Positions 28,666 through 42,631 of a stretch of DNA of 64,000 nucleotides are shown here, one piece after another (the first letter of the stretch is position 1; every line of letters begins with the position of its first letter). The DNA comes from Clostridiales bacterium. Lineage in GTDB: Bacteria > Bacillota > Clostridia > Christensenellales > Aristaeellaceae. A program made the translations under genes and the position numbers. The notes under the pieces were generated by a model. It ran no database searches and was not told the DNA's origin. It was given only the letters and a program-made list of their open reading frames with translations. The stretch spans positions 124,001 through 188,000 of the forward strand of contig SVGM01000003.1 of assembly GCA_015056365.1 (NCBI GenBank). The letters run 5' to 3'.

Positions 28666-30414
28666 TTAGTCGATGTAGAGATCGCGCTTCTCGTAGGTGG
28701 TGTGGAGCAGCTCATGGCTCTTGTGGCCGTTGGGCTTGCCCAGGAACTCGTCGTAGATGGCCTTGATCTCGGGGTTGAGGTGGCTCTTGCGCAGGGTCTT
28801 GGCAGCATCCTCATCGTAGAGAGCCTTCGCGCGGGCCACACGGATGTCGGTCCAGTTGCGCACAGCAGAGGACACGATGGGCTGACCGCCGCCATTGACG
28901 CAGCCGCCGGGGCAACCCATAACCTCGATAAAGGTGTAGTTCTTCTCGCCTGCCTTGATGGCGTCGAGGAGCTCAGCAGCCTTACCGGTGGAGGAGCAAA
29001 CGGCAACGTTCACATCCAGGTCGCCAACCTTAACGGTAGCTTCTTTGATGCCTTCCATGCCGCGCACGTCGTGCAGATCGAGGCTGGCCAGCTCGGTGCC
29101 GGTGATCAGCTCGTAAGCGGTACGCAGAGCAGCTTCCATAACGCCGCCGGTAGCGCCGAAGATGACGGCAGCGCCGGTGGATTCGCCCATCAGCTTGTCG
29201 AAGTCTTCATCGGGCAGGTTCTCGAAATCGATGCCGGCAGCCTTGATCATCTTGGCCAGCTCACGGGTGGTGATGACGTGATCCACGTCCATCAGGCCGT
29301 TGTTGCTCATTTCGGGACGCTTGGCCTCGAACTTCTTGGCGGTGCAGGGCATGACAGAGACGGTAACGATATCCTTGGGATCGATACCAGCCTTCTCGGC
29401 GTAGTAGGACTTGATCAGAGCGCCGGTCATCTGGTGAGGAGACTTGCAGGTGCTCAGATTCGGGATGAACTCAGGATAGTAGTGCTCGCAGAACTTGATC
29501 CAGCCGGGAGAGCAGCTGGTGATCATGGGCAGTACGCCGCCGTTCTGGATGCGGTTGATCAGCTCAGTGCCTTCTTCCATGATGGTCAGGTCAGCGCCGA
29601 AGTCGGTGTCGAACACCTTATCGAAGCCCAGACGACGGAGGGCAGCAGCCATCTTGCCGGTCACGCCAGTGCCGATGGGCATGCCGAATTCCTCGCCCAG
29701 AGCGGCGCGGACAGCGGGAGCAGGCTGCACGACCACATGCTTGGTGGAGTCGGCCAGAGCTTCCCAAACGGGCTTGGTCTCGTCACGCTCGGTCAGAGCG
29801 CCAACGGGGCAGGCGGTGATGCACTGGCCGCAATTGATGCAGGCCATCTCGCCCAGACCCTTGTCCCAGGGGCTCTCGATGGAGGTGCGGAAACCGCGCT
29901 TCACAGCGCCAATGACGCCGATCTTCTGCACGTTGGCGCAAGCGCCCACGCAGCGGCGGCACACGATGCACTTGTCGTTATCGCGAATGATGGAGGGAGA
30001 GCTCAGGTCGATGGTATGCTCAGTCTTAGCGCCATCGAAACGAGCGCCGTCCTCAACACCCATATCCAGGCACAGTTTCTGCAGTTCGCAGTTCTGGCTG
30101 CGGGAGCAGGTGAGGCACTTGCGGTCGTGGTTGCTCAGGATCAGCTCCAGGTTGGTCTTGCGAGCATCACGAACAGCAGGGGTATTGGTCTTAACAACCA
30201 TATTGGGGGTTACAGGCAGCACGCAGGCAGCCTGCAGGGTGCGGCCACCGCAGTCCACAACGCACAGACGGCAGTTGGCAGTCTCGTTGATGTCCTTCAG
30301 GTAGCACAGGGTGGGGATATTCACATTGGCTTTACGAGCCGCTTCAAGTACCGTCGAACCGGCAGGAACCTCTACCTGCACGCCGTCGATGGTAACATTG
30401 ATCATCTGGTCCAT
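28666..30414 (-). CDS. hndD: [FeFe]-hydrogenase catalytic subunit, HndD type
   Basis: Catalytic subunit of an NAD(P)-linked, possibly electron-bifurcating [FeFe]-hydrogenase. The 582-residue protein is modular. The [2Fe-2S] domain has C37, C48, C51 and C64. The His-Cys cluster region has H96, C100, C103 and C109. Two [4Fe-4S] clusters lie at about 149-159 and 192-202. The H-cluster domain follows: L1 TSCSPGW (299-305), L2 MPCTAKKFE (355-363) and L3 EVMGCPGGCVNGG (497-509). A C-terminal small-subunit-like tail (KSHELLHTTY) ends it. L1 has Ser where single-subunit enzymes have a second Cys, a common form in multimeric enzymes. The ATG at 30414 has AAAGGAG 8 bp upstream. Codons are strongly C/G-ending, suggesting high expression. 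Confidence 0.96.
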   Translation of the reverse strand: MDQMINVTIDGVQVEVPAGSTVLEAARKANVNIPTLCYLKDINETANCRLCVVDCGGRTLQAACVLPVTPNMVVKTNTPAVRDARKTNLELILSNHDRKCLTCSRSQNCELQKLCLDMGVEDGARFDGAKTEHTIDLSSPSIIRDNDKCIVCRRCVGACANVQKIGVIGAVKRGFRTSIESPWDKGLGEMACINCGQCITACPVGALTERDETKPVWEALADSTKHVVVQPAPAVRAALGEEFGMPIGTGVTGKMAAALRRLGFDKVFDTDFGADLTIMEEGTELINRIQNGGVLPMITSCSPGWIKFCEHYYPEFIPNLSTCKSPHQMTGALIKSYYAEKAGIDPKDIVTVSVMPCTAKKFEAKRPEMSNNGLMDVDHVITTRELAKMIKAAGIDFENLPDEDFDKLMGESTGAAVIFGATGGVMEAALRTAYELITGTELASLDLHDVRGMEGIKEATVKVGDLDVNVAVCSSTGKAAELLDAIKAGEKNYTFIEVMGCPGGCVNGGGQPIVSSAVRNWTDIRVARAKALYDEDAAKTLRKSHLNPEIKAIYDEFLGKPNGHKSHELLHTTYEKRDLYID

Positions 30415-30438
30415 TATTTCCACTCCTTTATGCAGATA

Positions 30439-32232
30439 TTAGTTCTTGACGATGGCGCCGAAACGGCACTTCTCCATACAAGAACCGCACTTGATGCACT
30501 TGGCGGTGTCGATGGTGTGCATTTCCTTCACGTTGCCACTGATGGCATTGACGGGGCACACACGGGCGCAAGCGGTACAGCCGCGGCACTTGTCAGTGAT
30601 CTCGTAGTTGAGCAGTTTCTGGCAGTGGTGGGCGGGGCAGCGCTTTTCCTTGATGTGGGCTTCGTACTCATGGCGGAAGTACTTCAGCGTGGAGAGAACG
30701 GGGTTGGGAGCAGTCTGGCCCAGACCGCACAGAGCGGTAGCCTTGATGTTGGCAGCCAGAGCTTCCAGCTTCTCGATGTCGCCTTCCTCGCCCTTGCCCT
30801 CGGTGATGCGCTCCAGGATCTCCAGCATACGCTTGGTGCCGATACGGCAGGGAGTGCACTTACCGCAGCTCTCGTCAACGGTGAAGTCCAGGAAGAAGCG
30901 GGCGATGTCAACCATACAGTTGTCTTCGTCCATAACGATCATACCGCCGGAACCCATCATGGAACCGATGGCAGTCAGCGTATCGTACTCAATGGGGGTA
31001 TCCAGCAGTTCAGCGGGAATGCAGCCGCCGGAGGGACCGCCGGTCTGCACAGCCTTGAAGGCCTTGCCACCGGGAATGCCGCCGCCGATCTTGTAGATGA
31101 TGTCGCGCAGGGGGGTGCCCATGGGAACTTCTACCAGACCGGTATTGTTGATCTTGCCGCCCAGAGCGAACACCTTGGTGCCGGGGCTCTTCTCGGTACC
31201 GATGGAGGTGAACCAGTCGGCGCCCTTGAGGATGATCTGGGGAATGTTGGCATAGGTTTCAACATTGTTGATATTGCTGGGCTGATCGAACAGACCACGC
31301 ACAGCGGGGAACGGAGGCTTGGGAGTGGGTTCGCCACGCTTGCCTTCGATGGAGCGCATCAGAGCGGTTTCTTCGCCGCAGACGAAGGCGCCGGCGCCCA
31401 GACGGATGTACATATCAAAGTCGAAGCCGGTGCCGAAGATGTTCTTGCCCAGCAGACCGTATTCGCGAGCCTGGTCGATGGCCAGCTGCAGGCGCTTAAC
31501 GGCGATGGGATACTCAGCACGGACATACACATAACCTTCGGTAGCGCCGATGGCGTAGCCGCCGATGGCCATGGCTTCGATGACGGAATGCGGGTCGCCT
31601 TCCAGAATGGAACGATCCATGAAAGCGCCGGGGTCGCCTTCGTCAGCGTTGCAGATGATGTACTTCTGATCAGCCTTGGAAGCTGCAGCGAACTTCCACT
31701 TGGTGCCGGTGGGGAAACCGCCGCCGCCACGGCCACGCAGACCGGACTTGATCATCTCGTTGATAACATCCTCGGGAGACATCTCGGTCAGCACCTTGGC
31801 CAGGGCCTGGTAGCCGTCAAAAGCGATGTACTCGTCGATGTTTTCGGGGTCGATCACACCGCAGTTACGCAGGGCCACACGGCGCTGGTCACGGTAGAAG
31901 TCGATGTCGTCCAGAGACAGGTGAGCGTCTTCGTGCTCTTCCTTCTCCTTGTAGACCAGATGCTGGGCAATACGGCCCTTGAGCAGATGCTCTGCAACGA
32001 TGGTATCAACATCTTCTACCTTGATGCGGCTGTAGAAAGTGCCTTCGGGATACACGATAACCACGGGGCCGGCTTCGCACAGACCGAAGCAGCCGGTGCG
32101 GACGACCTTAACTTCCTTGTCCAGACCGTGCTTGGCGATCTGCTCTTCAAAGCGCTCGATCAGCTGGTTGGAACCGCTGGAAGTACAGCCGGTACCGCCG
32201 CAGACAAGCACATGTGCGCGATAAAGATCCAT
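30439..32232 (-). CDS. hndC: NuoF-like NAD(P)/FMN subunit of the hydrogenase, HndC type
   Basis: Carries the NAD(P)-binding flavin site and passes electrons to HndD. The 597-residue protein has an N-terminal thioredoxin-like [2Fe-2S] domain (CGGTGCTSSGS and TGCFGLCEAGP). The NuoF core has GRGGGGFPTGTKW (NADH/FMN site), ADEGDPGAFMDR, GAGAFVCGEETALM, and the cluster ligands in DESCGKCTPCRIG. Two C-terminal ferredoxin clusters follow (CRGCTACARVCP and CIKCGSCMEKC). AAGGAGGA precedes the ATG. It shares the hnd operon and the codon bias of hndD. Confidence 0.95.
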   Translation of the reverse strand: MDLYRAHVLVCGGTGCTSSGSNQLIERFEEQIAKHGLDKEVKVVRTGCFGLCEAGPVVIVYPEGTFYSRIKVEDVDTIVAEHLLKGRIAQHLVYKEKEEHEDAHLSLDDIDFYRDQRRVALRNCGVIDPENIDEYIAFDGYQALAKVLTEMSPEDVINEMIKSGLRGRGGGGFPTGTKWKFAAASKADQKYIICNADEGDPGAFMDRSILEGDPHSVIEAMAIGGYAIGATEGYVYVRAEYPIAVKRLQLAIDQAREYGLLGKNIFGTGFDFDMYIRLGAGAFVCGEETALMRSIEGKRGEPTPKPPFPAVRGLFDQPSNINNVETYANIPQIILKGADWFTSIGTEKSPGTKVFALGGKINNTGLVEVPMGTPLRDIIYKIGGGIPGGKAFKAVQTGGPSGGCIPAELLDTPIEYDTLTAIGSMMGSGGMIVMDEDNCMVDIARFFLDFTVDESCGKCTPCRIGTKRMLEILERITEGKGEEGDIEKLEALAANIKATALCGLGQTAPNPVLSTLKYFRHEYEAHIKEKRCPAHHCQKLLNYEITDKCRGCTACARVCPVNAISGNVKEMHTIDTAKCIKCGSCMEKCRFGAIVKN

Positions 32233-32261: not shown

Positions 32262-32630
32262 TTACTCAGCAGCGCCGATGGTGTATTCCTGAACAGGACG
32301 GCCATTGACGATGTGCTCAGCCACGATGCGGGAAACCATTTCGGGCTTCACCTTCACGTAGGTGACCTTTTCCTTGCCGGGAACCAGCACGTCCAGCATG
32401 GGCTCGAGACGGCACATGCCGATGCAGCCGGTCTGGGACACGGTCACATTCTGGAGACCACGGGTCTGGATTTCGTCCATGAACTTGAGCATGACGGGGC
32501 GAGCGCCGGCAGCGATGCCGCAGGTAGCCATACCGATAACGATACGGGTGCCTTCGTCAGCGTCCTTACGCATGGAAATCTTGCCCAGAGTCTTTTCGCG
32601 GATAGCCTGCAATTCAGCCAGGGATTTCAT
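32262..32630 (-). CDS. hndB: [2Fe-2S] subunit of the hydrogenase, HndB type
   Basis: A 122-residue thioredoxin-like ferredoxin subunit. The two cysteine pairs are an N-terminal single Cys region (GMATCGIAAGA) and QTGCIGMCRLEP. Matching HndB proteins sit between HndA and HndC in NADP-reducing hydrogenases and transfer electrons within the complex. GGAGGTG lies 9 bp upstream of the ATG. It is located 29 bp before hndC. Confidence 0.88.
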   Translation of the reverse strand: MKSLAELQAIREKTLGKISMRKDADEGTRIVIGMATCGIAAGARPVMLKFMDEIQTRGLQNVTVSQTGCIGMCRLEPMLDVLVPGKEKVTYVKVKPEMVSRIVAEHIVNGRPVQEYTIGAAE

Positions 32631-32633
32631 TGC

Positions 32634-33182
32634 TTATGACACCTCCAAGATAGGTTTGAATTCTTCTTCAATGCTTTCTTTCATCCATACATAGATGTCG
32701 GGTTCGTTGAGCGGAATGCCGCCCAGTGCCTCGCGCACCATTCGGGTATCGAACAGCGCTTCGGCTTCCCCTGCCCGAGCTTCAAAGACGAAGTCGGGCT
32801 TTTCCGGATTCAGCGTGACCAGCGTCAGCAGCGTATCGCAGATATCCCCCATGGGGATGCAATCGATATGCCCCAGATGGAACGTAGCGGAGATGGTTGT
32901 CCCCACGTTAACGGTACTCTGGATGGAGAAGGCGCCATCGCTCATCTCCGCGCTTTGCTTGAGCATCGGGATCCCCAGACCCACCTTGCGTGTGGTACGT
33001 GTGGTGGTGAAGGGGTCTGTCACCTTTTGGAGGAATTCTTCGCTCATACCGCAGCCATCATCGATGACGGTGAAGCGGAGCATGTTCTGCTCGTCCTTCT
33101 CAAAGGTGATGGTAACCAGCGTTGCGCCGGCTTTGATGCTGTTCTGCGCAATATCCAGAACATGCATGGATAAATCTCTCAT
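32634..33182 (-). CDS. HATPase_c (GHKL) domain protein inside the hydrogenase operon
   Basis: A 182-residue protein with a histidine-kinase-type ATP-binding domain over residues 1-110: N box DIAQNSIKAGA, G1 DDGCGM, and the G2-like GLGIPM. It lacks the phospho-accepting His domain, transmembrane segments and any receiver. The C-terminal 70 residues have no recognised domain. It is 3 bp from both neighbours, so it is translated with the hydrogenase subunits. Similar proteins accompany clostridial hydrogenase operons, and a regulatory or sensing role is likely. The partner may be one of the proteins of the adjacent operon, which includes a second GHKL protein. Confidence 0.85.
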   Translation of the reverse strand: MRDLSMHVLDIAQNSIKAGATLVTITFEKDEQNMLRFTVIDDGCGMSEEFLQKVTDPFTTTRTTRKVGLGIPMLKQSAEMSDGAFSIQSTVNVGTTISATFHLGHIDCIPMGDICDTLLTLVTLNPEKPDFVFEARAGEAEALFDTRMVREALGGIPLNEPDIYVWMKESIEEEFKPILEVS

Positions 33183-33185
33183 AGC

Positions 33186-33659
33186 TTACATCGCCTTGTA
33201 CTTTTCGAGGATACCGGGGATTTCAGCGGGAGTCAGACGACCAAAGACATCGTCATTGATCATCATAACGGGAGCCAGACCGCAAGCGCCGAGGCAGCGG
33301 GTGGCCTGCACGGTGAACTTGCCATCTTTGGTGGTGTCGCCGGGCTGGATCTCCAGTTCTTCACAGAGCTTGTCCAGAACAGCCTGAGAACCCTTGACGT
33401 AGCAAGCGGTACCGAGGCAGACGCCGCAGACGTACTCGCCCTTGGGCTGCAGAGAGAACTGAGAGTAGAAGGTAGCAACGCCGTAGACTTCGCTCAGCGT
33501 GACACCCAGACCATCAGCAATGATCTTCTGCACGTCTTCGGACACGCAGCCGAAGATGTTCTGCGCTTCCTGCAGAACAGGCATCAGTGCGCCCTTTTGC
33601 TCTTTGTGATCCTGGATTACCTGTGCCAGCTTTTCAAACTTTTCGTTACGATCGGACAT
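33186..33659 (-). CDS. hndA: NuoE-like [2Fe-2S] subunit of the hydrogenase, HndA type
   Basis: A 157-residue thioredoxin-like ferredoxin subunit homologous to the 24-kDa NuoE subunit. The first helical bundle (ALMPVLQEAQNIFGCVSEDVQKIIADGLG) and EVYGVATFYSQF are typical. The four cluster cysteines are CLGTAC (first pair) and CLGAC in RCLGACGLAPV. It is the first gene of the operon. The ATG at 33659 is family-consistent; GGAGGAGG lies 12 bp upstream, rather far. An earlier frame-open ATG abuts that ribosome site. Confidence 0.93.
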   Translation of the reverse strand: MSDRNEKFEKLAQVIQDHKEQKGALMPVLQEAQNIFGCVSEDVQKIIADGLGVTLSEVYGVATFYSQFSLQPKGEYVCGVCLGTACYVKGSQAVLDKLCEELEIQPGDTTKDGKFTVQATRCLGACGLAPVMMINDDVFGRLTPAEIPGILEKYKAM

Positions 33660-33700
33660 GGCAGTATAAGACCTCCTCCATAGTTGAATCACTGTAACGT

Positions 33701-33749
33701 GTGCTTGAACAGCACAAATCTATTATATAATATCATACTCTCAGCCAAA
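33701..33749 (-). promoter_or_regulatory. hnd operon promoter region with palindrome at the start site
   Basis: On the minus strand a perfect -10 TATAAT lies at 33727-33722. The -35 is weak (TTGGCT or TTTTGG near 33743-33749, spacing 15-17). The 17-bp element TGTGCT-N5-AGCACA at about 33700-33716 is centred just downstream of the predicted start site. It could be an operator or a leader hairpin. A TTGTGAA half site at 33761-33767 resembles half of a Rex operator, but the second half is not recognisable. Confidence 0.5.
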
Positions 33750-33795
33750 AATCACGCATTTTGTGAAAAAATAATCATTTTTATTTGATGGTATC

Positions 33796-33830
33796 AAAAG
33801 ACGACGGTTTTTGTTGGACAAACCGCCGTC
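33796..33830 (-). terminator. Terminator of the SPOR-PHP operon
   Basis: Minus strand stem GACGGCGGTTT with AAACCGTCGTC (one G-U pair), 9-nt loop, then TTTTG. It lies 23 bp past the PHP gene stop and separates the two redox operons. Confidence 0.82.
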
Positions 33831-33853
33831 TTACATCTTGTGTATGTAGAAAA

Positions 33854-34561
33854 TCATCCGTGATAAAGCTTTTTGAGAAACTGAAAGGCAGCCTCAGGGG
33901 TTGCTTCCTCCAAGGGCAAGGAGAACACCTGATCCTGGATATCCTCCAGCCGATGGGCATCGCTTGAATGCAGCTGGAAACGTCCTTTGGTAGCATAAGC
34001 AGGGCAGTCCAGATTTGCGTATACCTCAACAATGGGAAACTGGGGCAGAAAAGGCATCAAACCCAAAGCGCCGATCATGCCGTTGTTGCCACGGTTGATG
34101 TGTGCAGGCACGGTTACACCATGATGCTTTTTGACCAGTGCTTCCACCTCATCCACACTCAGATCTGTCGCGTTAATCAGCAGTTTGTCAAGAATTCCTC
34201 CGGGTTCATCCCCATTGGTCTTGATCAATTGGTTACCAAATAGCGCAGGCTGATTCTGAATATCCGGCAAATGTGCATAGACCTCTTCCCCTGCATCCAG
34301 CGCATCTTTTAGCGTTGGAAAATATCCGAGAATATGGGCTTCTTCCTTGCTGGTGATTTCCATACCCGGAAGCACTGCCACGCCGTATTCAGCGCCCGCT
34401 GCGATGGCTTCAGGCACATTGCGCGTGGTGTTGTGATCTGTGAGCGCGATGAGTGACAATCCGTTTACGCACGCCATCCCTACCAGATTCCACGGTGTCA
34501 TCTCGTCATCTCCGCAGGGCGAAAGACAACTGTGCAGATGCAGGTCGCAGAAAACCTCCAT
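33854..34561 (-). CDS. PHP-domain phosphoesterase
   Basis: A 235-residue metal-dependent phosphoesterase of the PHP family. Metal-ligand motifs are visible: DLHLHSCLSPCG (HxH, near residue 8), ALTDHNT, PGMEIT, VPAHINR and the C-terminal SSDAHR. Relatives include nucleotide phosphatases and histidinol phosphatase. Because this copy belongs to a redox/signalling operon, hydrolysis of a nucleotide signal is an attractive inference but unproven. The ATG at 34561 is one base after the upstream stop. A TTG at 34570 is an alternative, and both have weak ribosome sites. Confidence 0.88.
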   Translation of the reverse strand: MEVFCDLHLHSCLSPCGDDEMTPWNLVGMACVNGLSLIALTDHNTTRNVPEAIAAGAEYGVAVLPGMEITSKEEAHILGYFPTLKDALDAGEEVYAHLPDIQNQPALFGNQLIKTNGDEPGGILDKLLINATDLSVDEVEALVKKHHGVTVPAHINRGNNGMIGALGLMPFLPQFPIVEVYANLDCPAYATKGRFQLHSSDAHRLEDIQDQVFSLPLEEATPEAAFQFLKKLYHG

Positions 34562-34562
34562 C

Positions 34563-34910
34563 TTACTCAACGGGCGCTGCGATACCAGCTTTGTTCATAA
34601 TACCGCATACTTCATAGGCCGTTTTGGTGGTAGACAGCACGGGCATGCCTTCGTCGATCGCCTTCTTCAGAGAGGCCTCTTCAGCTTCCACGCCTTCGAC
34701 CAAAATAACGCAGGCCATTTCCATTAACACAGAAACGGCGATCACGTTCACATGGGTCTGCACGGTACACCAGGCCATGCCCTGCTTGCCGTGAGCCAAC
34801 ACCCAGCTGAGCAGGTCGCAGCTGTATCCGCAGGAAATCTCCGCTTCCAGATCGGCATTTTCCGTAACGCACTTTGCATCCAGCAAAGCAAGCAACTCTT
34901 TTACTTTCAT
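34563..34910 (-). CDS. DRTGG-domain protein 1
   Basis: A 115-residue protein that is essentially one DRTGG-type domain (KVKELLALLDAKCVTENADLEAEISCGYSCDLLSWVLA), the regulatory domain also found in some phosphotransacetylases and CBS proteins. It is paralogous to the protein at 36713-37072: both share the start V-x-x-L-L/I-x-x-LDAK, the acidic -E-V/I-x-CG- segment and a C-terminal CG-hydrophobic-AGI. It has no catalytic motif and is probably a ligand-binding or partner protein. AGGAGAG lies 7 bp upstream of the ATG. Confidence 0.8.
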   Translation of the reverse strand: MKVKELLALLDAKCVTENADLEAEISCGYSCDLLSWVLAHGKQGMAWCTVQTHVNVIAVSVLMEMACVILVEGVEAEEASLKKAIDEGMPVLSTTKTAYEVCGIMNKAGIAAPVE

Positions 34911-34922
34911 GTTATTTCTCTC

Positions 34923-36227
34923 CTATTCTCTTGTGCTTTTGGCCAGCTCAACCATCTGCTGTGCCATCACTTTCAGTTGTTCCTTCAAAATGTGAATGCA
35001 ATCCATCTTGTTGCAGTATCCACGGACAATGTCCTCAGCAAAAGTGCGGCAGGTAGGACTTCCGCAGCTTCCGCAGTCATAGCCCGGAAGACTACGCACG
35101 ATCTCTTCCATTTGCTCCATCTTGCGCATGGCTTCTACGATATCATCATCCAGACGCATGACGCTGTTGGGCAAAACGGGCTGTTCTGCGATCAAAGGAT
35201 ACTTGCCGAGATAGGAAGCGTTCACTTTCTCGTCGGGATGCGTGATATCGCAGCCGCTCATCAATGCCTGGACAGCATTGCGGGCAACGTAGCTGTTTTC
35301 GAACGTCAGGGGACCGCCTACGCAACCGCCTGTACAAGCAGCACCCTCAAAGAAGACCAAATCCTGCAACTTATTGTTTTCGATCTCTTCAAGCACACGA
35401 ATGACGTTTTCGATACCATCAACAGCCATACTGTGCTCTGGGCAGACCGCATTGGCCTCACCGCCGCTGTTCGCCCAACCGACACCATACGCGCTGGCGG
35501 TTGCCGTGTTGGTATTGGTATGGATCTTCTTCATATGGCTGGCAAGCAAGCCGTAGATTTCCATCATGGAGATCGCGCCATCCACAGCGGAGGTCTCATG
35601 TCCGATGGGATTTCGAATGGCCGTCATCTTGGCTGCACAGGGTGTGATAAAGAAACAGCCAACGTCTTTGGGATCAACCTTGTGTTTCTTACAAAACTCC
35701 TGCTTGGCAACCATGGCAGCCACTTCCATGGGCTGGCGGATATCGATGATGTGCGAAAGCAGATCAGGAAAACGTACCCGGATCAGGCGTACGATGGCCG
35801 GACAAGCGGAAGAAATAATGGGATAATCCTCCGGTTGTGCATTGCGCATTCTCTCGCGGATTGCGCGTGTGACGATATCTGCGCCTTCTGCCACTTCGTA
35901 TACATGGTCGAATCCCATTGCGAGCAGGCCATCCAGTACCTGAGACGGGCTGATGAGATGCTTGAACTGTCCATACAGCGACGGAGCAGGCAGTGCGATC
36001 TTATACTTGAACTCTCCCAGCGACGAAAGAGGATCTGTTTGTGCATATTTGGCATGATAATCGCAAACACGAATGCACTCACCGCAGTCGATGCAGCGTT
36101 CATCAATGATATGCGCCCGGCCACCGCGAACACGGATCGCTTCCGTAGGGCAACGTTTCAAACAGTTGGTACAGGCCTTGCATTTGTCCTTATCCAGCCT
36201 TACAGAATGAAATCTTTTGTCCTGCAT
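34923..36227 (-). CDS. Divergent [FeFe]-hydrogenase-like iron-sulfur protein (sensory/HfsB-like)
   Basis: A 434-residue protein. Two N-terminal [4Fe-4S] clusters (CKACTNCLKRCP and CIDCGECIRVC) lead into a hydrogenase large-subunit-like domain. The H-cluster motifs are altered: L1 reads SSACPAI (about 139-145), L2 TPCAAKMTA (C197, K200) and L3 EGAACTGGC (C298, C302). The MxC and terminal Glu features of L2 and L3 are lost. A C-terminal Fes-type cluster (CGSCGSPTCRTFAEDIVRG, near 385-403) resembles the one in RnfB. This layout matches the non-canonical hydrogenases thought to sense H2 or redox state. The ATG at 36227 has GGAGG 8 bp upstream. It is flanked by DRTGG and ATPase genes. Confidence 0.88.
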   Translation of the reverse strand: MQDKRFHSVRLDKDKCKACTNCLKRCPTEAIRVRGGRAHIIDERCIDCGECIRVCDYHAKYAQTDPLSSLGEFKYKIALPAPSLYGQFKHLISPSQVLDGLLAMGFDHVYEVAEGADIVTRAIRERMRNAQPEDYPIISSACPAIVRLIRVRFPDLLSHIIDIRQPMEVAAMVAKQEFCKKHKVDPKDVGCFFITPCAAKMTAIRNPIGHETSAVDGAISMMEIYGLLASHMKKIHTNTNTATASAYGVGWANSGGEANAVCPEHSMAVDGIENVIRVLEEIENNKLQDLVFFEGAACTGGCVGGPLTFENSYVARNAVQALMSGCDITHPDEKVNASYLGKYPLIAEQPVLPNSVMRLDDDIVEAMRKMEQMEEIVRSLPGYDCGSCGSPTCRTFAEDIVRGYCNKMDCIHILKEQLKVMAQQMVELAKSTRE

Positions 36228-36257
36228 GTTCATTTCCTCCGAAAGAAAACCATTGGA

Positions 36258-36689
36258 TTATCTCTTGAGGGCAAAACCCATCTTAATGGTGGTGCCTTCC
36301 CCCACCTGACTTTGAATATCGAAGCTGTCAGCGTTGCGCTTCATGTTGGGCAGACCCATACCTGCGCCAAAACCAAGATCACGTGCTTCTTCGCTGGCAG
36401 TTGAATACCCCTCCTCCAGCGCCTTGCTGATATCCGGAATGCCAGGGCCAACATCCTTGGAGATGAGCAGCACTTCTTCAGGGCTCATTTCCATGATCAG
36501 ATTTCCGCCATTGCTGTGAATGATCAAGTTGAGTTCAGCCTCATAGCTGGCTACGGCCACTCTGCGAAGGGTGACCGCATCGATACCCAGCTGTTTGAGC
36601 TTTCGCTTGATACTGGCAGATGCATCGCCGGCAGTCTGAAAAGCGCCGGAAGCAACATCGTAGCTGTCAACAAACAGATTATTTGACAT
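36258..36689 (-). CDS. RsbW-like anti-sigma-factor-type ATPase
   Basis: A 143-residue GHKL ATP-binding protein. Motifs: the N box in VASYEAELNLIIHSNGG, G1 in SKDVGPGIPDI, and G2 in GLGFGAGMGLPNMKRNAD. It has the compact single-domain form of RsbW/SpoIIAB-type serine kinases, not of full histidine kinases. Such proteins bind or phosphorylate a partner (sigma factor or STAS protein); none is in the window. It lies between a DRTGG gene and the hydrogenase-like gene. Together with the GHKL protein inside the hnd operon it makes two such ATPases in about 4 kb. Confidence 0.85.
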   Translation of the reverse strand: MSNNLFVDSYDVASGAFQTAGDASASIKRKLKQLGIDAVTLRRVAVASYEAELNLIIHSNGGNLIMEMSPEEVLLISKDVGPGIPDISKALEEGYSTASEEARDLGFGAGMGLPNMKRNADSFDIQSQVGEGTTIKMGFALKR

Positions 36690-36712
36690 GGTAACTCCCT
36701 CTCTTTTGCAGA

Positions 36713-37072
36713 TTATGCGCCGGTACGGGCTGCGCTTCCCTTGATGCCTGCCTGATACAGCAGACCACAGGTGGTGTAGTTGGTATGCTCTGTCGCAAGA
36801 ACTGCAATGCCGATCTCACGTGCTTCCTCAAGGATGTCTTCGGAAGGAATTTTGCCTCGGGCGAAAATCACGCAATGAATATCCAGCATTTCCGCTGTAC
36901 GCATCACGTGGACATTGGTCAGACCGGTAATCAAAACGCACTTTTCCTTCACAAAAGCAAGCACGTCGCTCATCAGATCGCTTCCGCAAGCCATCTTGAC
37001 TTCCTCGTCAAGGCGTTCCTCGCCACAAAGTACTTTGGCATCCAGAATAGGGATCAAATCTCGGATGGTCAC
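36713..37072 (-). CDS. DRTGG-domain protein 2
   Basis: A 119-residue single DRTGG-type domain, paralogue of the protein at 34563-34910. The GTG at 37072 is preferred as start: AGGAGGG is 6 bp upstream, and the product then begins TIRDLIPILDAKVL like its relatives. The ATG 6 bp earlier directly abuts the ribosome site. The C-terminal part (HTNYTTCGLLYQAGIKG) mirrors the other copy. It probably senses a small ligand or interacts with the iron-sulfur protein. Confidence 0.8.
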   Translation of the reverse strand: MTIRDLIPILDAKVLCGEERLDEEVKMACGSDLMSDVLAFVKEKCVLITGLTNVHVMRTAEMLDIHCVIFARGKIPSEDILEEAREIGIAVLATEHTNYTTCGLLYQAGIKGSAARTGA

Positions 37073-37083
37073 AGTCATCCCTC

Positions 37084-37911
37084 CTATGTGTTTCCCAGTA
37101 TATCGTAAACCTGCTTGAGCAGGTTCAGCGAGCGAATGGTCTGATATTTCAGCTGCGCGCCGAAGGAGACGCTGCTGAGGTCATCTTCTATACTATCACA
37201 GAAGCCGGCATAATCGTCCAGCAGCGTCAGAAGGCATTCGACGCTTGGATCCCTCGGCAGAGGAAAACGCTGCTGCATCCTGAGAGACACCAGGCTCGTC
37301 TGGTCTCGCAGCGTCAGAAGCTTTAACCGCATTTCCTCCGCCGATAGCTCGGAACGGTCTGACGCAATGCCCAGCTGCTGCAGCGACAGGATGAGATCGT
37401 CTGCATGAAGAAAAGCCGCCTGGAGGATCTCGATCTGGCCGCGCATTCCCTGTATGCTCACGGCAATCGGTGGAAGCTTAATATGAAAGAGATACGAATC
37501 CACTTCATGACGCTGGCTGATCTGCTCACGTACACTTCGCGCATCCTCCTCGGTGGGATAGACAGCAGCCAGTACACGATAGCGCTGATCCTGCCATAAA
37601 TAGCCGGCAGCACCGCGATTTTGGAATTGGTAAGCAAAGTCTTTAGCAGATGCTTCATCCTCAAAAGCGCCGAGCTGAAGTGCGTACCACTGAACCTCAG
37701 GCAATGTCCATTCAACAGCTGTGATGGTTTCATCAAAGCTTTCATCCAGTGGAAACGGCGTAGCAGTTGGCAGAGGACTTACATTGCCCGCAGGACTTCT
37801 TGAGGCAAGTAGACCCGAGAGAAAAACGATTCCTGCTATTAACAAAAGCAGATAGCTCATCCATTTCCCGGGTGCATGTCCACTCGGGTATACCTTTTTT
37901 TGCTCCTGCAT
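37084..37911 (-). CDS. Membrane-anchored SPOR-domain protein
   Basis: A 275-residue protein with one transmembrane segment (about 18-36, SYLLLLIAGIVFLSGLLAS) and a Pro/Thr linker. A SPOR domain follows (about 75-145: WYALQLGAFEDEASAKDFAYQFQNRG ... RVLAAVYPTEEDARSVREQI). SPOR domains bind denuded peptidoglycan at division or spore septa. A C-terminal helical region of about 125 residues has no recognised domain. It is the first gene of the operon that ends with the PHP gene, which is an unusual partner set for a SPOR protein. GGGAGGG lies 7 bp upstream of the ATG. Confidence 0.85.
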   Translation of the reverse strand: MQEQKKVYPSGHAPGKWMSYLLLLIAGIVFLSGLLASRSPAGNVSPLPTATPFPLDESFDETITAVEWTLPEVQWYALQLGAFEDEASAKDFAYQFQNRGAAGYLWQDQRYRVLAAVYPTEEDARSVREQISQRHEVDSYLFHIKLPPIAVSIQGMRGQIEILQAAFLHADDLILSLQQLGIASDRSELSAEEMRLKLLTLRDQTSLVSLRMQQRFPLPRDPSVECLLTLLDDYAGFCDSIEDDLSSVSFGAQLKYQTIRSLNLLKQVYDILGNT

Positions 37912-38016
37912 ACCAATACCCTCCCATATTCCTGTGAGGACACCCTATGCCCGGGCAAAGCAGGTTATGACAGAATCGCTATTCTTGTTGCATTTGGTCG
38001 TTTCTGAGTCAAAGTT

Positions 38017-38045
38017 ATTATACTGTATGTCCTTCAATTATGCAA
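38017..38045 (-). promoter_or_regulatory. Promoter of the SPOR-to-PHP operon
   Basis: Minus strand TTGCAT (38045-38040), 17 bp, TATAAT (38022-38017). It is 106 bp upstream of the SPOR gene. No other feature is visible in this leader. Confidence 0.72.
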
Positions 38046-38081
38046 CCTTGTTTGCCGAACGAAAGGAAATGCGAAAGAGAA

Positions 38082-38111
38082 AAAACGAGAACAAAGCCTC
38101 GTTCTCGTTTT
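38082..38111 (-). terminator. Terminator of the panE-type gene
   Basis: Perfect 11-bp stem (AAAACGAGAAC with GTTCTCGTTTT) around 8 nt, with T-rich flanks on both strands, so it may act bidirectionally. It lies 21 bp after the stop. Confidence 0.88.
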
Positions 38112-38131
38112 CAAAAGTGATTCAATTCAAA

Positions 38132-39145
38132 TCAGAGCAGATCATCGAAGAGATGAATATTTTCTGCCTTCAAACTGATTTCTCCGCGTTCCGCCTTTTT
38201 GATCAGTTCCACGATTCGGTCATTGATGGGCGTGGGCACGCCGTATTTCGTGCCATAAGCGCATACGATGCCATTGATGGCGTCCACCTCGCATGCTTTA
38301 CCTGCTTTCAAATCCTGTAGCATAGACGGTTCAATGGCACGATGCTTCTTCATGGCAATTGGAATAAGCAGCGTACCAATCTCGCGCTTGAAAGCATTCC
38401 GATAATCAAAGAGTTTGGTGATATTCTTGCCCTGTACTGGAGCGAACGTAACACCAGCAACGTGTCCAACATCGATGCACTCTTTCATGCAGCGAATGGC
38501 AACTTTCCGCGCGCCTTTGTTTTCGCTTACGTCGCCGAAGGTACCGCCCACAACGGTGCCAAGGCCAGAGAAGGTAGCGTTGATCAGCAGTTTGGACCAG
38601 CGCGCGCCCAGCAGGTTTTCTTCTTCATGAACAGGGCACATGCGTTCAAGCAACTCCTTGACCATGTTGTACTGTGCATCGGAAATGCCGTCCATCTTAC
38701 CCATATGGAACGACAGGCTGTCAGGCGTACTGGTAAGCGTGCACACACCCGGTTCAGACAGCGTAGCTCCCCACTCTACCACGCAGCCCATCGTACGGTT
38801 GGAGCCTACAATGGCAGCAATGCCAGGCTCAGGCAACCCGTTTTGCAGTGTAACGATGACGCCTTCCTCAGACAAATAGTCCTTGAGCATGGAAACTACT
38901 TCTGCGTTATGCAACTGTTTGGTCATCAGCAGAATCACGTCATACGTTCCCGTCATTTCGTCAGGCGTGATGGCCTTGACGGGCACATTCATCTCCACCG
39001 TACCCGTGATCCGGGCACCGTGTTCATTCAATGCATTCACATGGGCTTGGTTACGATTGATCAGATCAATTTCGTCGCCATTTTGGGTAATATACGCGCC
39101 AAGAACAGTACCAAGAGAACCCGCTCCATAAATTGCATATCTCAT
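38132..39145 (-). CDS. panE: Ketopantoate reductase family protein (ApbA/PanE)
   Basis: NAD(P)H-dependent reductase of the 2-dehydropantoate 2-reductase family, 337 residues; the classical role is pantoate synthesis for coenzyme A. The N-terminal Rossmann motif GAGSLGTVLGAYI (7-19) and the catalytic Lys region ARWSKLLINATFSGLGTVVG are present. The C-terminal domain carries EVDAINGIVCAYGTKYGVPTPIND. The ATG at 39145 has AAGGAGGA 8 bp upstream; the longer open frame has no match. No panB, panC or panD is nearby, and the family includes paralogues with other substrates. The specific activity is therefore less certain than the family. Confidence 0.85.
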   Translation of the reverse strand: MRYAIYGAGSLGTVLGAYITQNGDEIDLINRNQAHVNALNEHGARITGTVEMNVPVKAITPDEMTGTYDVILLMTKQLHNAEVVSMLKDYLSEEGVIVTLQNGLPEPGIAAIVGSNRTMGCVVEWGATLSEPGVCTLTSTPDSLSFHMGKMDGISDAQYNMVKELLERMCPVHEEENLLGARWSKLLINATFSGLGTVVGGTFGDVSENKGARKVAIRCMKECIDVGHVAGVTFAPVQGKNITKLFDYRNAFKREIGTLLIPIAMKKHRAIEPSMLQDLKAGKACEVDAINGIVCAYGTKYGVPTPINDRIVELIKKAERGEISLKAENIHLFDDLL

Positions 39146-39171
39146 TTCATCATTCCTCCTTATGATTTTGC

Positions 39172-39200
39172 AGTATAACACATGTATCCAATTTATGAAA
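39172..39200 (-). promoter_or_regulatory. Putative promoter for the panE-type gene
   Basis: Minus strand TTTCAT, 17 bp, TATACT (39177-39172). The -10 is good and the -35 weak. It lies in the divergent intergenic region shared with the DUF6062 gene. Confidence 0.4.
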
Positions 39201-39223
39201 GTAAACCACTTACCGATTTTGCA

Positions 39224-39253
39224 ATGGCACATATCAAAGGGATATGGTATACT
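39224..39253 (+). promoter_or_regulatory. Putative promoter for the DUF6062 gene
   Basis: ATGGCA (39224-39229), 18 bp, TATACT (39248-39253), about 50 bp upstream of the start codon. Confidence 0.35.
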
Positions 39254-39304
39254 TGATTACGTCACAAACGCATTTTCATCACCAAGAGAGAAGTGAATTC
39301 ATTT

Positions 39305-40036
39305 ATGCAGTACCATCTTGAAACCATTCCCGTTTGGGAAGCCATGGAAGCAGAAACGCCCTGCCCCTTCTGTTACCTGAAAGAGAAATTGGAGATCAAC
39401 GAAGTGGAACGTTCATTGGGCGGAAGCGTTATGGAACCCGATTCCCGTATCCGTGTCAACAAAACCGGTATTTGCGCGCATCATCACACCCAACTTTTTG
39501 CAATGCATAATCGTCTTGGCCATGCCTTACTCTGCGATTCTCACTCCAAAGAGATTCTGGAGACGCTTGACAAGGTAAAGGTATCTGGCAAAAGCGGTCG
39601 AGGTCTGTTCTCCTCCTCTGCCACCGCATGTGAAAAGCTGGCACAGGAACTAGACGCCCTGGCCAGCGGTTGTGTTATTTGCGAAGATATCGCCTCTCAC
39701 ATGAAACGCTATCTGTACACCTTTATTCACTTGTGGAAGACGGACCGCGCTTTCCTACGCAAATGGGAAGAATCCAACGGCCTTTGTTTTCCGCATGCAA
39801 TCGAACTTCTGCAGATGGCCTCCCGTCAGCTCGGCTCCAGTCAGGAGCAGCAGTTCGCTCAGGCTGTACTGGACAGCATGAAAAAGACTCTCTCTGTGGA
39901 TGAAAGCGATCTTGAATGGTTCACGCTGAAGTTTGACTACCGCAACCAGCAAAAGCCTTGGGGCAACAGCCGCAATGCGCTTGAGCGCACGGTGAACCGC
40001 CTGCGTGGAAAGTGCGTTAGCAGCACAGAGAATTAA
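39305..40036 (+). CDS. DUF6062 family protein
   Basis: A 243-residue cytoplasmic protein of a Firmicute family with no known function. It has two Cys-based pairs that may bind metal: CPFCYLKEKLE near residue 20, and SGCVICEDIASHMKR near residue 120. A His-rich segment (CAHHHTQLFAMHNR) lies around residue 57. The rest is predicted helical. The ATG at 39305 matches the family start (MxxxxxTIPVxEA). A GTG 12 bp earlier is possible, and neither has a strong ribosome site. It converges on the dCMP deaminase gene with a 4-bp overlap. Confidence 0.75.
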   Translation: MQYHLETIPVWEAMEAETPCPFCYLKEKLEINEVERSLGGSVMEPDSRIRVNKTGICAHHHTQLFAMHNRLGHALLCDSHSKEILETLDKVKVSGKSGRGLFSSSATACEKLAQELDALASGCVICEDIASHMKRYLYTFIHLWKTDRAFLRKWEESNGLCFPHAIELLQMASRQLGSSQEQQFAQAVLDSMKKTLSVDESDLEWFTLKFDYRNQQKPWGNSRNALERTVNRLRGKCVSSTEN

Positions 40037-40491
40037 TCCAGCGGTTCTTCGAACCGTTCCAGCAAAACGCCAGCCTGTTCAAACAGCTCAATGGAGAATG
40101 GATCCGGATACCCCTGCTGATAGACCACGCGCCGAATGCCTACGTTGATGATCATCTTGGCGCAGACAGAGCAGGGCTGATGAGTGCAGTACAACGTTGC
40201 ACCGTCGATGGAGATTCCCAGTTTGGCTGCCTGTAGGATGGCGTTTTGTTCTGCATGGATGGCATAGCAAACTTCCGCACGCGTACCAGATTCGATGTTC
40301 ATCTGATCTCTGAGACAGACGCGGCGTTCCTTGCAAGTGAGCAGACCGGCAGGCGCGCCATTATAGCCGGTGGTCATGATGCGCTTATCCTTGACGATCA
40401 CGGCGCCGATGCTTCTTCCCTCACGATAGCAGCTGGACCATTCCGAAATCAGGTAGGCCATTTTCATAAACCGAATATCCCATTTATCCAT
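40033..40491 (-). CDS. comEB: Deoxycytidylate deaminase (ComEB-like)
   Basis: Zinc enzyme that deaminates dCMP to dUMP for thymidylate synthesis. The 152-residue protein has the cytidine-deaminase-fold metal site: HAEQNAIL (His and catalytic Glu) and PCSVCAKMIINVG (two Cys). The N-terminal dCMP-deaminase features GAVIVKDKRIMTTGYNGAP and CYAIHAEQ are also present. The ATG at 40491 has AGGGGGGA upstream. The gene has its own promoter and converges on the DUF6062 gene. Confidence 0.93.
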   Translation of the reverse strand: MDKWDIRFMKMAYLISEWSSCYREGRSIGAVIVKDKRIMTTGYNGAPAGLLTCKERRVCLRDQMNIESGTRAEVCYAIHAEQNAILQAAKLGISIDGATLYCTHQPCSVCAKMIINVGIRRVVYQQGYPDPFSIELFEQAGVLLERFEEPLD

Positions 40492-40515
40492 TAGTATCCC
40501 CCCTATTACTCCTGC

Positions 40516-40545
40516 ATCATAGCACAACGCCAACCTTTATGGCAA
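40516..40545 (-). promoter_or_regulatory. Promoter of the dCMP deaminase gene
   Basis: Minus strand TTGCCA (40545-40540), 18 bp, TATGAT (40521-40516), 25 bp upstream of the start codon. Confidence 0.6.
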
Positions 40546-40593
40546 GGCATAGGGTTCATCATCCTTTCATACTTTCTCCACGGAGGCGAAGGT

Positions 40594-41892
40594 ATGAAGG
40601 ACGGAGCAAAAAGACAGACGATCCTGCTGACTGGCTTAAATGGTTTGATCCGAGCGTTGGGCTTCCTTCTCAGGGTAATGATGTCCCGTATCCTCGGGGC
40701 AGAGGTTATGGGAATTGCCGAGCTTGCGCAAAGCGTGCATATGCTCGCGATTACGCCGTTGACATCCGGCCTTCCCCTTGCCATCAGCAGACTCACCGCC
40801 AAAGAACAAAAAGAAAACAAAGTTTTTCCCCTCATGGCGGGCATGTCTCTGGTTCGGCAACTTTCCCTGGTGCTGATTCCCCCGTTTTTGATTCTCTCGC
40901 CGGCCCTGGCGCGTTTATCTGGCGATGTACGAGTTCTTCCTTCGCTGTGGTTTACGGCGCCATGCATGCTGATTCTGGGTTATTCAGGGGCCTACAACGG
41001 TTATTGTTACGGCACGCGGCGAAGTTATCTTCCTGCGGTTTCAGAATTGACCGAGCAAACCCTTCGTATGGGCTTTACGCTGCTCCTGCTGCCTGTTCTT
41101 GGCAGGCTGTCAGTTGCGTGGCTGGCCGCTGTGCCCGTTGCCGCTACAATGGTTGCGGAAGTAATCGGTCTTGGGCTGGTGGTGCTGGTATTGCGGCTTC
41201 CCACTATACGAGGCAGCTCGATCAACAAATGGAAAAAACCCATTGTCCGTCTGGCGGCTCCCGCCACTGCTACTCGCCTGATCCACACCTTGCTCCGTTC
41301 AGCAACAGCCATCATTATTCCCATGCGCCTTGTTGCTTCCGGACTGCCTGCGTCAGAGGCCACTGCGCGCCTTGGGATGCTGAACGGTATGGTTTTTCCG
41401 CTGATGATGCTCCCCTGCATTTTCACAGGTGCGCTTTCGATGGTCATGATCCCCAGACTGGCGCAAAGCGAAGAAAATGCCCGGTCATGCAAAGAAATGT
41501 TACTCAAACTCTTTGCAGCCGGGCTGTTGGTTTCGCTTGTGTGTATGGGATGCTTGATCCTTCTTGCACCATTTATTGCCGTCAAAATTTATCGATTGGC
41601 AGAACTGCAGGCGTTGCTTTTGGCCGCTTCACCTCTGTGCTTCCTCTGCGCGGCTGAAAACCTGACTGGAGGCGCTATTGCAGCGCTTGGACTGCAAAAG
41701 TATTCCATGTATGGTTCCATCCCCAGTTCCCTACTTGCGCTGCTCCTTACCTGGATGCTGACTTCACGGCCGGAACTCCGCCTTCTGGGCGTGATCCTCA
41801 GCCAATGTATCGGGCATGGCTTCGGAATCGCTTGGAACGGCGGCGTCATCGTCCGCTGGTGGCGCAGCCATCAGGCAAACTCGCCTTTGTGA
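40594..41892 (+). CDS. SpoVB/MurJ-like polysaccharide flippase
   Basis: A 432-residue integral membrane protein of the MOP flippase superfamily with about 12-14 predicted membrane segments. The start (GLIRALGFLLRVMMSRILGAEVMGIAELAQSV) matches SpoVB-like proteins, which move lipid-linked precursors across the membrane for spore cortex or wall synthesis. A GLASLPLAISRL-like segment (SGLPLAISRLTAKE) follows. GGAGG lies 7 bp upstream of the ATG. Its 3' end overlaps the convergent methyltransferase gene by 22 bp. It is slightly short for SpoVB (about 500), so a related Wzx-type role is possible. Confidence 0.82.
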   Translation: MKDGAKRQTILLTGLNGLIRALGFLLRVMMSRILGAEVMGIAELAQSVHMLAITPLTSGLPLAISRLTAKEQKENKVFPLMAGMSLVRQLSLVLIPPFLILSPALARLSGDVRVLPSLWFTAPCMLILGYSGAYNGYCYGTRRSYLPAVSELTEQTLRMGFTLLLLPVLGRLSVAWLAAVPVAATMVAEVIGLGLVVLVLRLPTIRGSSINKWKKPIVRLAAPATATRLIHTLLRSATAIIIPMRLVASGLPASEATARLGMLNGMVFPLMMLPCIFTGALSMVMIPRLAQSEENARSCKEMLLKLFAAGLLVSLVCMGCLILLAPFIAVKIYRLAELQALLLAASPLCFLCAAENLTGGAIAALGLQKYSMYGSIPSSLLALLLTWMLTSRPELRLLGVILSQCIGHGFGIAWNGGVIVRWWRSHQANSPL

Positions 41893-42620: not shown

Positions 42621-42631
42621 CGGCAATCTCC

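Follow-up and report, generated by a model that had tools for sequence, protein, structure and literature searches.

A conserved gene module around a group D [FeFe]-hydrogenase homologue: a candidate for redox signalling beside NADH-linked oxidoreductases

What does a hydrogenase-like protein report on when it is encoded among an ATPase and two small DRTGG proteins, right beside an operon of the hydrogenase type, in a genome in which two hydrogenase maturases are not found? This question is raised by a 64,000-nucleotide stretch of a Clostridiales bacterium (GenBank assembly GCA_015056365.1, contig SVGM01000003.1, positions 124,001 to 188,000), called the window below. On its minus strand, from 37911 to 33854, six open reading frames (ORFs) follow one another with short spacing in the order S-D1-K-H-D2-P. 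These symbols, along with A, k, B, C and F for the operon behind them, are used as gene letters, and L and G codes denote individual loci and genomes of the comparison set. The best reading of the operon in this genome is a redox-signalling module and not a hydrogen sensor. More specifically, D1-K-H-D2-P together with k may form a conserved module through which the adjacent NADH-linked oxidoreductase is informed of the electron state of ferredoxin and NADH, a proposal to which we give an even chance. It competes mainly with two other readings, namely an assembly or maintenance factor and, in species bearing HydG, the sensing of H2.

Six tightly spaced genes had been described here in an earlier note made from the sequence of the window. 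Their coordinates and families hold on the evidence of the ORFs and of Pfam; D2, with a Pfam score just under the DRTGG threshold, is placed by its 31% identity to D1. The genes are as follows.

37084..37911, minus strand: S, a SPOR-domain protein with a hydrophobic stretch at the N-terminus, an optional neighbour of the module (Pfam SPOR, 31.6 bits)
36713..37078, minus strand: D1, a stand-alone DRTGG protein (Pfam DRTGG, 44.1 bits against a cut-off of 25.2)
36258..36689, minus strand: K, a SpoIIAB/RsbW-like GHKL ATPase and probable kinase (Pfam HATPase_c_2)
34923..36233, minus strand: H, also called HydD, a group D/M2e [FeFe]-hydrogenase homologue (Pfam Fe_hyd_lg_C, Fer4, FeS)
34563..34910, minus strand: D2, a second and more divergent DRTGG protein (Pfam, 23.9 bits, under the cut-off of 25.2)
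33854..34561, minus strand: P, a PHP phosphoesterase (Pfam PHP, 30.3 bits against a cut-off of 26.4)

The listed start of P is a TTG at 34570; the ATG at 34561, directly behind the stop codon of D2, is likelier.

How widely is this arrangement kept? Matches to HydD (E <= 1e-60) occur in 85 of the 200 genomes of the order, in 138 of the 291 of a class sample and in 118 of the 299 of a phylum sample. With strict profiles (a looser iterative hidden Markov model merges HydD with HndD), flanks were read at 110 HydD loci, namely 99 from the order, class and phylum genomes, 10 from a separate search, which carry no HydG status, and the window itself. The set was picked from about 335 matched genomes for room on both sides, mostly with one or two per family code, and L177 was dropped for its overlap with L147. 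Given that H is found, and with partners scored on the same strand within 3 kb, D1 is present in 100 loci, K in 103, D2 in 100 and P in 97. All four partners are present in 88; among the 22 loci short of them are fusions, loci at contig ends and sets that are dispersed or reduced. Spacing is tight, D1-K, H-D2 and D2-P having a median gap of -1 bp and K-H one of 20 bp. Of the six genes, five are thus a deeply conserved linked module. The sixth, the SPOR gene, lies upstream in 37 of the 110 loci, and it was ruled out as a core part on that count. The role in cell division that had been suggested through SPOR is likewise not supported.

Co-occurrence was judged from raw genome counts, and the Fisher P, which ignores relatedness, is not leaned on. 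The K profile matches 126 of the 299 phylum genomes at E <= 1e-20, and every one of these matches lies below 1e-47; the K family is therefore discrete. The phylum genomes divide into 117 with both H and K, one with H only, nine with K only and 172 with neither; for H and P, the corresponding numbers are 111, 7, 5 and 176. The neighbourhood check that had been proposed for all six families thus bears out the linkage for five of them, with K in 117 of the 118 genomes positive for H, and not for SPOR. Among the genomes with K and no scored H, G565 (L214) does hold HydD, its gene being interrupted and read as two ORFs, while K lies near the end of a short contig in L221 and L222. G485 and G632 (L218 and L219) show a D gene, K, a weak D match and k, with neither H nor P, and in G511 (L220) K is absent from the ORF display. 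HydD is likewise split in L224 (G477, scored as positive for H). The HydD genes split over two ORFs in an otherwise intact module are L214:9597-10951, L224:9164-10542 and L042:9391-10764, a split that may be due to frameshift or decay.

The products of the module may touch one another. As single ORFs of the assemblies, K and H are fused in L166, H and D2 in L142 and L173, and P and k in L158. D1 and K are fused in L146, L154 and L171, which score 94-141 bits with the D1 profile and 181-201 bits with that of K. Pfam at E <= 1e-4 gave no DRTGG in the two D1-K fusions that were scanned, and the D1 profile did match. Every adjacent pair of the series D1-K-H-D2 is therefore fused somewhere, which suggests contact. 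As far as gene structure can tell, the fusions support a relay or a complex of the iron-sulfur protein, the ATPase and the DRTGG proteins. The relay in that order, as first proposed, gains from them; the chemistry that we infer for it is set out further below.

The input end of the module may itself be exchangeable. At four loci in three genomes (G564, G591 with two loci, and G623), K carries two CBS domains, and no HydD match is present:

L213:9879-10787, K with CBS domains
L215:8869-9783, K with CBS domains
L216:8970-9923, K with CBS domains
L217:10484-11455, K with CBS domains

D1, D2, P and k are retained in L213, L215 and L217, and just D1 and K in L216. In L149, a CBS-K fusion stands alongside HydD. 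The CBS domains on K in modules that give no HydD match look like a sensor swap.

What kind of protein is H? By its domains and residue features, it matches group D/M2e, the type of TamHydS of Thermoanaerobacter mathranii, as a sequence family. The earlier description as divergent and hydrogenase-like can be sharpened to this group. The layout consists of two N-terminal [4Fe-4S] motifs, the H-domain and a C-terminal Cx2Cx4Cx16C (Pfam Fer4 and FeS). There is no PAS domain in the window protein; A143 stands at the C299 position and T197 at the M353 position, and R34, R36, E400 and D401 are the equivalents of R30, R32, E392 and D393, by comparison with the available parts of PMC8163306 and PMC13104023. 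The four H-cluster cysteines, C144, C199, C300 and C304, are all present. The 12 accessory-cluster cysteines are invariant across the 97 HydD rows tallied, one truncated row excepted. The tally omits the fused HydD ORFs (L142, L166 and L173), and 34 loci lacking a HydG status were counted apart. Against three close relatives, the ratio of nonsynonymous to synonymous substitution rates (dN/dS) of H is 0.012-0.020, with saturated dS; the gene is under purifying selection in this lineage.

The presence of cluster cysteines does not by itself tell which clusters are built, and here the maturases come in. In the window genome (87.9% complete), there is no HydG match and no HydF over the cut-off, HydE not having been searched; in the same-genus genome G142 (95% complete), neither HydG nor HydF was found. 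Because of this, a complete H-cluster is not expected in the window HydD, and the hnd-type hydrogenase next to it is probably not working here, contrary to its earlier description as catalytic. The window genome encodes two Fe_hyd proteins in total. HydG passes the curated cut-off in three of 40 genomes drawn from the window's family (G097 and G179 of the family also have it) and in 34 of the 200 of the order, where the 85 HydD-positive genomes split into 20 with it and 65 without. In the phylum sample, HydG was found in 81 of the 118 HydD-positive genomes (G735 being marginal) and did not pass in about 37, the split being set by a chosen E-value cut that admits 157 genomes as against 156 by the standard cut-off. 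Some of the genomes scored as negative (G041, G527 and G658, for example, with E about 1e-56) do show a weaker match that stays below the curated threshold. Among 40 chosen HydD-positive genomes, HydF was present in none of the 30 without HydG and in all 10 with it. Those 30 include the one-contig G704 and the three-contig G527 and G035, and 23 of them are at least 95% complete. As many carriers seem to be without the genes that finish a hydrogenase, the module probably reads redox and not H2 gas.

Where HydG is not found, HydD itself differs little. In the rows negative for HydG, all 16 cluster cysteines (12 accessory and four of the H-cluster) are kept in 29 of 29, as they are in the window protein, whose genome has no HydF or HydG match. 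Of the presumed proton-path residues, in TamHydS numbering, E289 is kept in 29 of these 29 rows, E252 in 26 and D265 in 26; K358 is found in 24 of the 29 as against 33 of the 34 positive for HydG, and P354 in 26 of 29 as against 34 of 34. From these tallies, the [2Fe] pocket is at most slightly relaxed and the cubane ligands are fixed. In a tree built from 62 HydD sequences (HydD only, with rows under 380 amino acids or without a HydG status left out), the HydG label changes at least 13 times, nine of the changes being forced by starred branches, and gain and loss are not separable.

If H2 is not what is read, the enzyme next door may give a hint. The hnd-type operon A-k-B-C-F comes directly after the module terminator in the window.

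33186..33692, minus strand: A, a NuoE/HndA-like 2Fe-2S subunit of an NADH-linked complex
32634..33182, minus strand: k, a second GHKL ATPase, of the histidine-kinase type, inside the hnd-type operon
32262..32630, minus strand: B, a HndB-like thioredoxin-fold 2Fe-2S subunit (Pfam, 20.4 bits, under the cut-off of 24.8)
30439..32232, minus strand: C, a NuoF/HndC-like NADH- and FMN-binding subunit (Pfam Complex1_51K, NADH_4Fe-4S, SLBB, Fer4)
28666..30423, minus strand: F, a HndD/HydA group A-type subunit with TSCSPGW, Ser standing at the CpI Cys300 position

The second ATPase inside this operon, already pointed out before, is thus present at 32634-33182. Across the 110 loci, the recurring order is D-K-H-D-P(-A)-k-B-C-F. 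The k gene lies within 7 kb in 86 of them and directly behind P in 13, and it is for this adjacency that k is counted as part of the module. A match to the C or F profile is found downstream in 82 of the 110, RnfC also matching the C profile.

Where a full F-type ORF is present, it is in most loci an HndD-type subunit carrying the H-domain. At L158, L163, L164, L170, L176 and L214, its place is taken by a formate dehydrogenase with a NuoG-like N-terminus and molybdopterin domains, encoded in two ORFs. In L176 (L176:2292-4976), the only locus at which the codon was read, the split is an in-frame TGA read as selenocysteine 354. At L128, k is followed by RnfC, D, G, E, A and B, and L135 is alike by sizes and order; at L123, RnfC comes after A-k-B-C. 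Genes for RnfC and RnfD are also found close to L216 and L217, two modules without H, and RnfD-like ORFs occur within 9 kb in nine of the 110 loci. At L134:4962-10630 and L136:9409-15597, HydD stands without D, K and P ahead of an operon of the Nqr/Rnf type, which in L134 holds, by Pfam, RnfD- and RnfG-like genes and an NqrF-like reductase, with no RnfC found beside it. The thread common to these neighbours is NADH/ferredoxin chemistry and not H2, and the idea that a hydrogenase is the general target is not supported, given the formate dehydrogenase and Rnf loci. A gene for a Rex-type repressor is found near the module in 11 of 122 loci (as at L163:1523-2140, L176:1001-1684 and L213:11297-11926); Rex is an NADH-responsive redox repressor.

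The best match of F is HydA1 of the solved structure 7q4v, over nearly the full length, and the two share TSCSPGW. In the 78 HndD-type ORFs, the Cys300 position reads CS in 65 and CC in one, with the pattern unmatched in 12; a looser pattern finds TSCCPGW in L137, L167, L169 and L172. The C300S change was not used as proof of a dead hydrogenase, since 7q4v HydA1, which we take to be the active enzyme of Acetobacterium woodii, shares the motif. At L142:13772-16072 and L173:14046-16379, there is a second hydrogenase-like protein of 767-778 amino acids, which in L142 joins, by Pfam, Fe_hyd, FeS, PAS, HisKA and HATPase in one chain and is thus like a group C sensor kinase.

Could the remaining proteins carry a signal? 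The N, G1 and G2 boxes of K are intact, and it keeps the N-box Glu and Asn that serve catalysis in SpoIIAB. The AlphaFold model of D1 has a predicted local distance difference test (pLDDT) score of 93. Its closest structures are 2ioj (AF1212) and the CBS-pyrophosphatase DRTGG domains 3l31 and 3l2b, at template modelling (TM) scores by query length of 0.71-0.76, the 0.76 belonging to 2ioj. D34 and S37, in the motif D-L-x-S, are invariant in the aligned D1 and D2 rows, and S37, which the model places near a helix start, is by analogy a possible phosphosite. In P, H11, H13, D45, H46, E71, H79, H157, D204 and H206 are invariant in 29 rows, and we take these nine to be the PHP metal ligands. Its fold matches are weak (3e0f, 2yb1 with bound AMP, and RNase AM, at TM 0.42-0.45). 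The P model is of moderate quality (pLDDT 74, with residues 157-199 below 50), and any guess at the substrate is therefore weak.

Put together as a signalling chain, HydD would be the input, with electrons entering through its ferredoxin-like domain. In the absence of HydF and HydG matches, it would here probably hold cubane clusters only. By direct contact, the redox state of HydD would pass to K, as ATPase or kinase, and to D1 and D2, which might act as phosphoacceptors or as nucleotide-responsive switches. P, as a phosphoesterase, would reverse the signal, and k would couple it to the target complex, of the hnd type here and formate dehydrogenase or Rnf elsewhere. A rule for the whole family can be worded from this, which we hold as tentative and on balance doubtful: HydD would be the exchangeable iron-sulfur input of a six-protein system that meters ferredoxin/NADH poise, works without an H-cluster, can have its sensor swapped for CBS and is sited by whichever NADH/ferredoxin enzyme the cell has, while K would phosphorylate DRTGG at D-x-x-S and P would remove or hydrolyse the signal.

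Several observations weigh against a redox-signalling module. Most of the HydD-positive genomes of the phylum sample do carry HydG. HydD from genomes without HydG keeps most of the presumed proton-path residues of TamHydS and, in most rows, K358, which a plain redox relay need not do. Seventeen unassigned ORF clusters occur in at least six of the 110 loci, and none is like a sigma factor, STAS or SpoIIE, to go by their first 60 residues. The two that recur most widely (43 and 32 loci) consist of ORFs on the reverse strand across the operon, and the other recurring neighbours, among them a dCMP-deaminase-like protein (17 loci), an ABC ATPase (16), an RnfD-like protein (nine), a response-regulator-like protein (six), GroEL and Rex, show no common output. 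Finally, the co-conservation also fits an assembly or maintenance role.

Such a role is the rival that survives best, even if we consider it unlikely. HydD would then be a protein like Nar1, the eukaryotic hydrogenase-like protein that lacks an H-cluster and works in iron-sulfur assembly, and K, k, D1, D2 and P would build, load or protect subunits of the NuoF/RnfC type. The hnd complex, formate dehydrogenase and Rnf share flavin/iron-sulfur subunits of the Complex1_51K type, and the module adjoins them whatever the catalytic subunit. The cubane cysteines of HydD are kept where the maturation system is not always kept, and the two ATPases could be chaperone-like. What speaks for sensing instead is the presence of CBS on K in the absence of HydD, and of Rex near the module; moreover, we know of no assembly role for PHP or DRTGG proteins.

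An H2 sensor, as the literature proposes for group D, is less probable still; HydD would here hold a complete H-cluster, and its signal would reach the hydrogenase operon by way of K. This reading draws on TamHydS, which turns over H2 and shifts in secondary structure under H2 (PMC8163306 and PMC13104023, in the parts available), on the hydrogenase-type operon that adjoins the module in most loci with the downstream side read, on HydG in the 81 phylum genomes and on the chain of L142, in which a hydrogenase domain is tied directly to PAS, HisKA and an ATPase. Known chemistry excludes it in the window genome, where HydG and HydF were not found, and with this the H2 sensing first proposed for this organism is set aside. 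Elsewhere, it has to face the 65 of 85 HydD-positive genomes of the order that lack HydG over the cut-off, and the modules with formate dehydrogenase or Rnf beside them. For much of the family, the missing maturases put the reading as an H2 sensor in question.

Partner switching, with K as an anti-sigma factor, D1 and D2 in the place of STAS antagonists and the sigma factor encoded elsewhere, is very improbable. In its favour, the nearest solved structures of K are those of the anti-sigma F factor SpoIIAB (E 3e-11), its ATP boxes are intact, and the model puts the D-x-x-S of D1 and D2 close to where a helix begins. Against it, K reaches 48.8 bits where the spIIAB family has a cut-off of 135, D1 has the fold of DRTGG and HPr-kinase N-domains and not of STAS, and the recurring neighbour clusters include neither a sigma factor nor SpoIIE.

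The ends of the operon had been given as one promoter and one terminator, and two elements do match.

38017..38045, minus strand: promoter-like site TTGCAT-17-TATAAT ahead of the operon (pattern match)
33798..33832, minus strand: terminator hairpin at the boundary between the module and the hnd-type operon (fold -18.4 kcal/mol)

The promoter-like pattern has two matches in the 64 kb, with 0.28 expected. The hairpin has a z of -4.83, and none of 200 shuffles was equally stable. A general scan of 33000-45000 lists neither of them, the -35 box agreeing in 3/6 positions and the loop of the hairpin being of nine; it shows no excess of such signals, with 10 promoter-like sites as against 11.0 in shuffles and 11 terminator-like ones as against 11.0.

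If the redox reading is true, the module would place fermentation redox control in about 40% of the sampled phylum genomes (118 of 299), beside the enzymes that decide the flux of hydrogen, formate and ferredoxin in anaerobes. The operon also offers candidate partners for group D, namely K, D1, D2, P and k, which the fusions support; K and P have their close co-occurrence with H as well. A sensory function of group D has been proposed from nearby kinases and bifurcating hydrogenases (PMC8163306, PMC13104023 and PMC3561251, as far as their available parts go), and the available part of PMC13104023, of 2026, names the interaction partners as future work. It also reports that the C-terminal cluster is not reduced by H2.

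The neighbourhood itself has left few marks in the literature: a gene list for Halanaerobium, and remarks on flanking genes for TamHydS and by Carere, in the parts of these sources available; where narrow search phrases gave nothing, this is weak evidence of absence. DRTGG and hydrogenase are mentioned together in one unrelated paper. The accessible portions of PMC8924675, PMC12578642, PMC5886521 and PMC3990059 hold no account of the module; Tsac_1856, listed in PMC5886521, is a PHP gene for which a Rex site is predicted.

How does the module compare with known systems? Its gene list is already in print, without a mechanism, as Halsa_1862-1871 of Halanaerobium hydrogeniformans (PMC4237134). 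In the part of that paper available, the list names a hydrogenase, an NADH dehydrogenase, a ferredoxin-like protein, a histidine kinase, NuoE, a PHP protein, an 'iron-sulfur binding hydrogenase', an iron-sulphur cluster protein, an anti-sigma factor/kinase and an unidentified ORF. The order fits F-C-B-k-A-P-D2-H-K-D1, D2 and H being assigned as we infer. It is presented there as a putative hydrogenase operon of one organism, and that part gives no module, mechanism or maturase test. TamHydS, as described in the available parts of PMC8163306 and PMC13104023, shares with H the domain order, the two [4Fe-4S] motifs and the Cx2Cx4Cx16C, and likewise has a non-Cys residue at C299, Ser/Thr at M353 and the R30/R32/E392/D393 set. 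Unlike it, H belongs to a genome without HydF or HydG matches, where a complete H-cluster is not expected, and those accounts name no DRTGG, PHP or second-ATPase partners. The electron-bifurcating HydABC, represented by 7q4v HydA1, resembles F in motif and matches it over nearly the full length, again with the difference that the window genome has no HydF or HydG match.

Like the kinases SpoIIAB and RsbW, K belongs to the GHKL fold family and has N, G1 and G2 boxes, with Glu and Asn in the N box. It differs from them in scoring 48.8 and not 135 bits, and in having DRTGG and hydrogenase-like proteins as operon partners, with no STAS partner. The group C sensor kinases of the PAS type likewise tie a hydrogenase domain to a GHKL ATPase, whereas HydD has no PAS and the SpoIIAB-like K is a separate protein, fused to it only in L166. 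D1, lastly, has the same fold as AF1212 (2ioj) and the DRTGG domain of the CBS-pyrophosphatase (3l31 and 3l2b), and the association of DRTGG with CBS returns in the variants without HydD; unlike those proteins, D1 and D2 stand alone, at 115-121 amino acids, in a D-K-H-D-P operon and with a conserved D-L-x-S.

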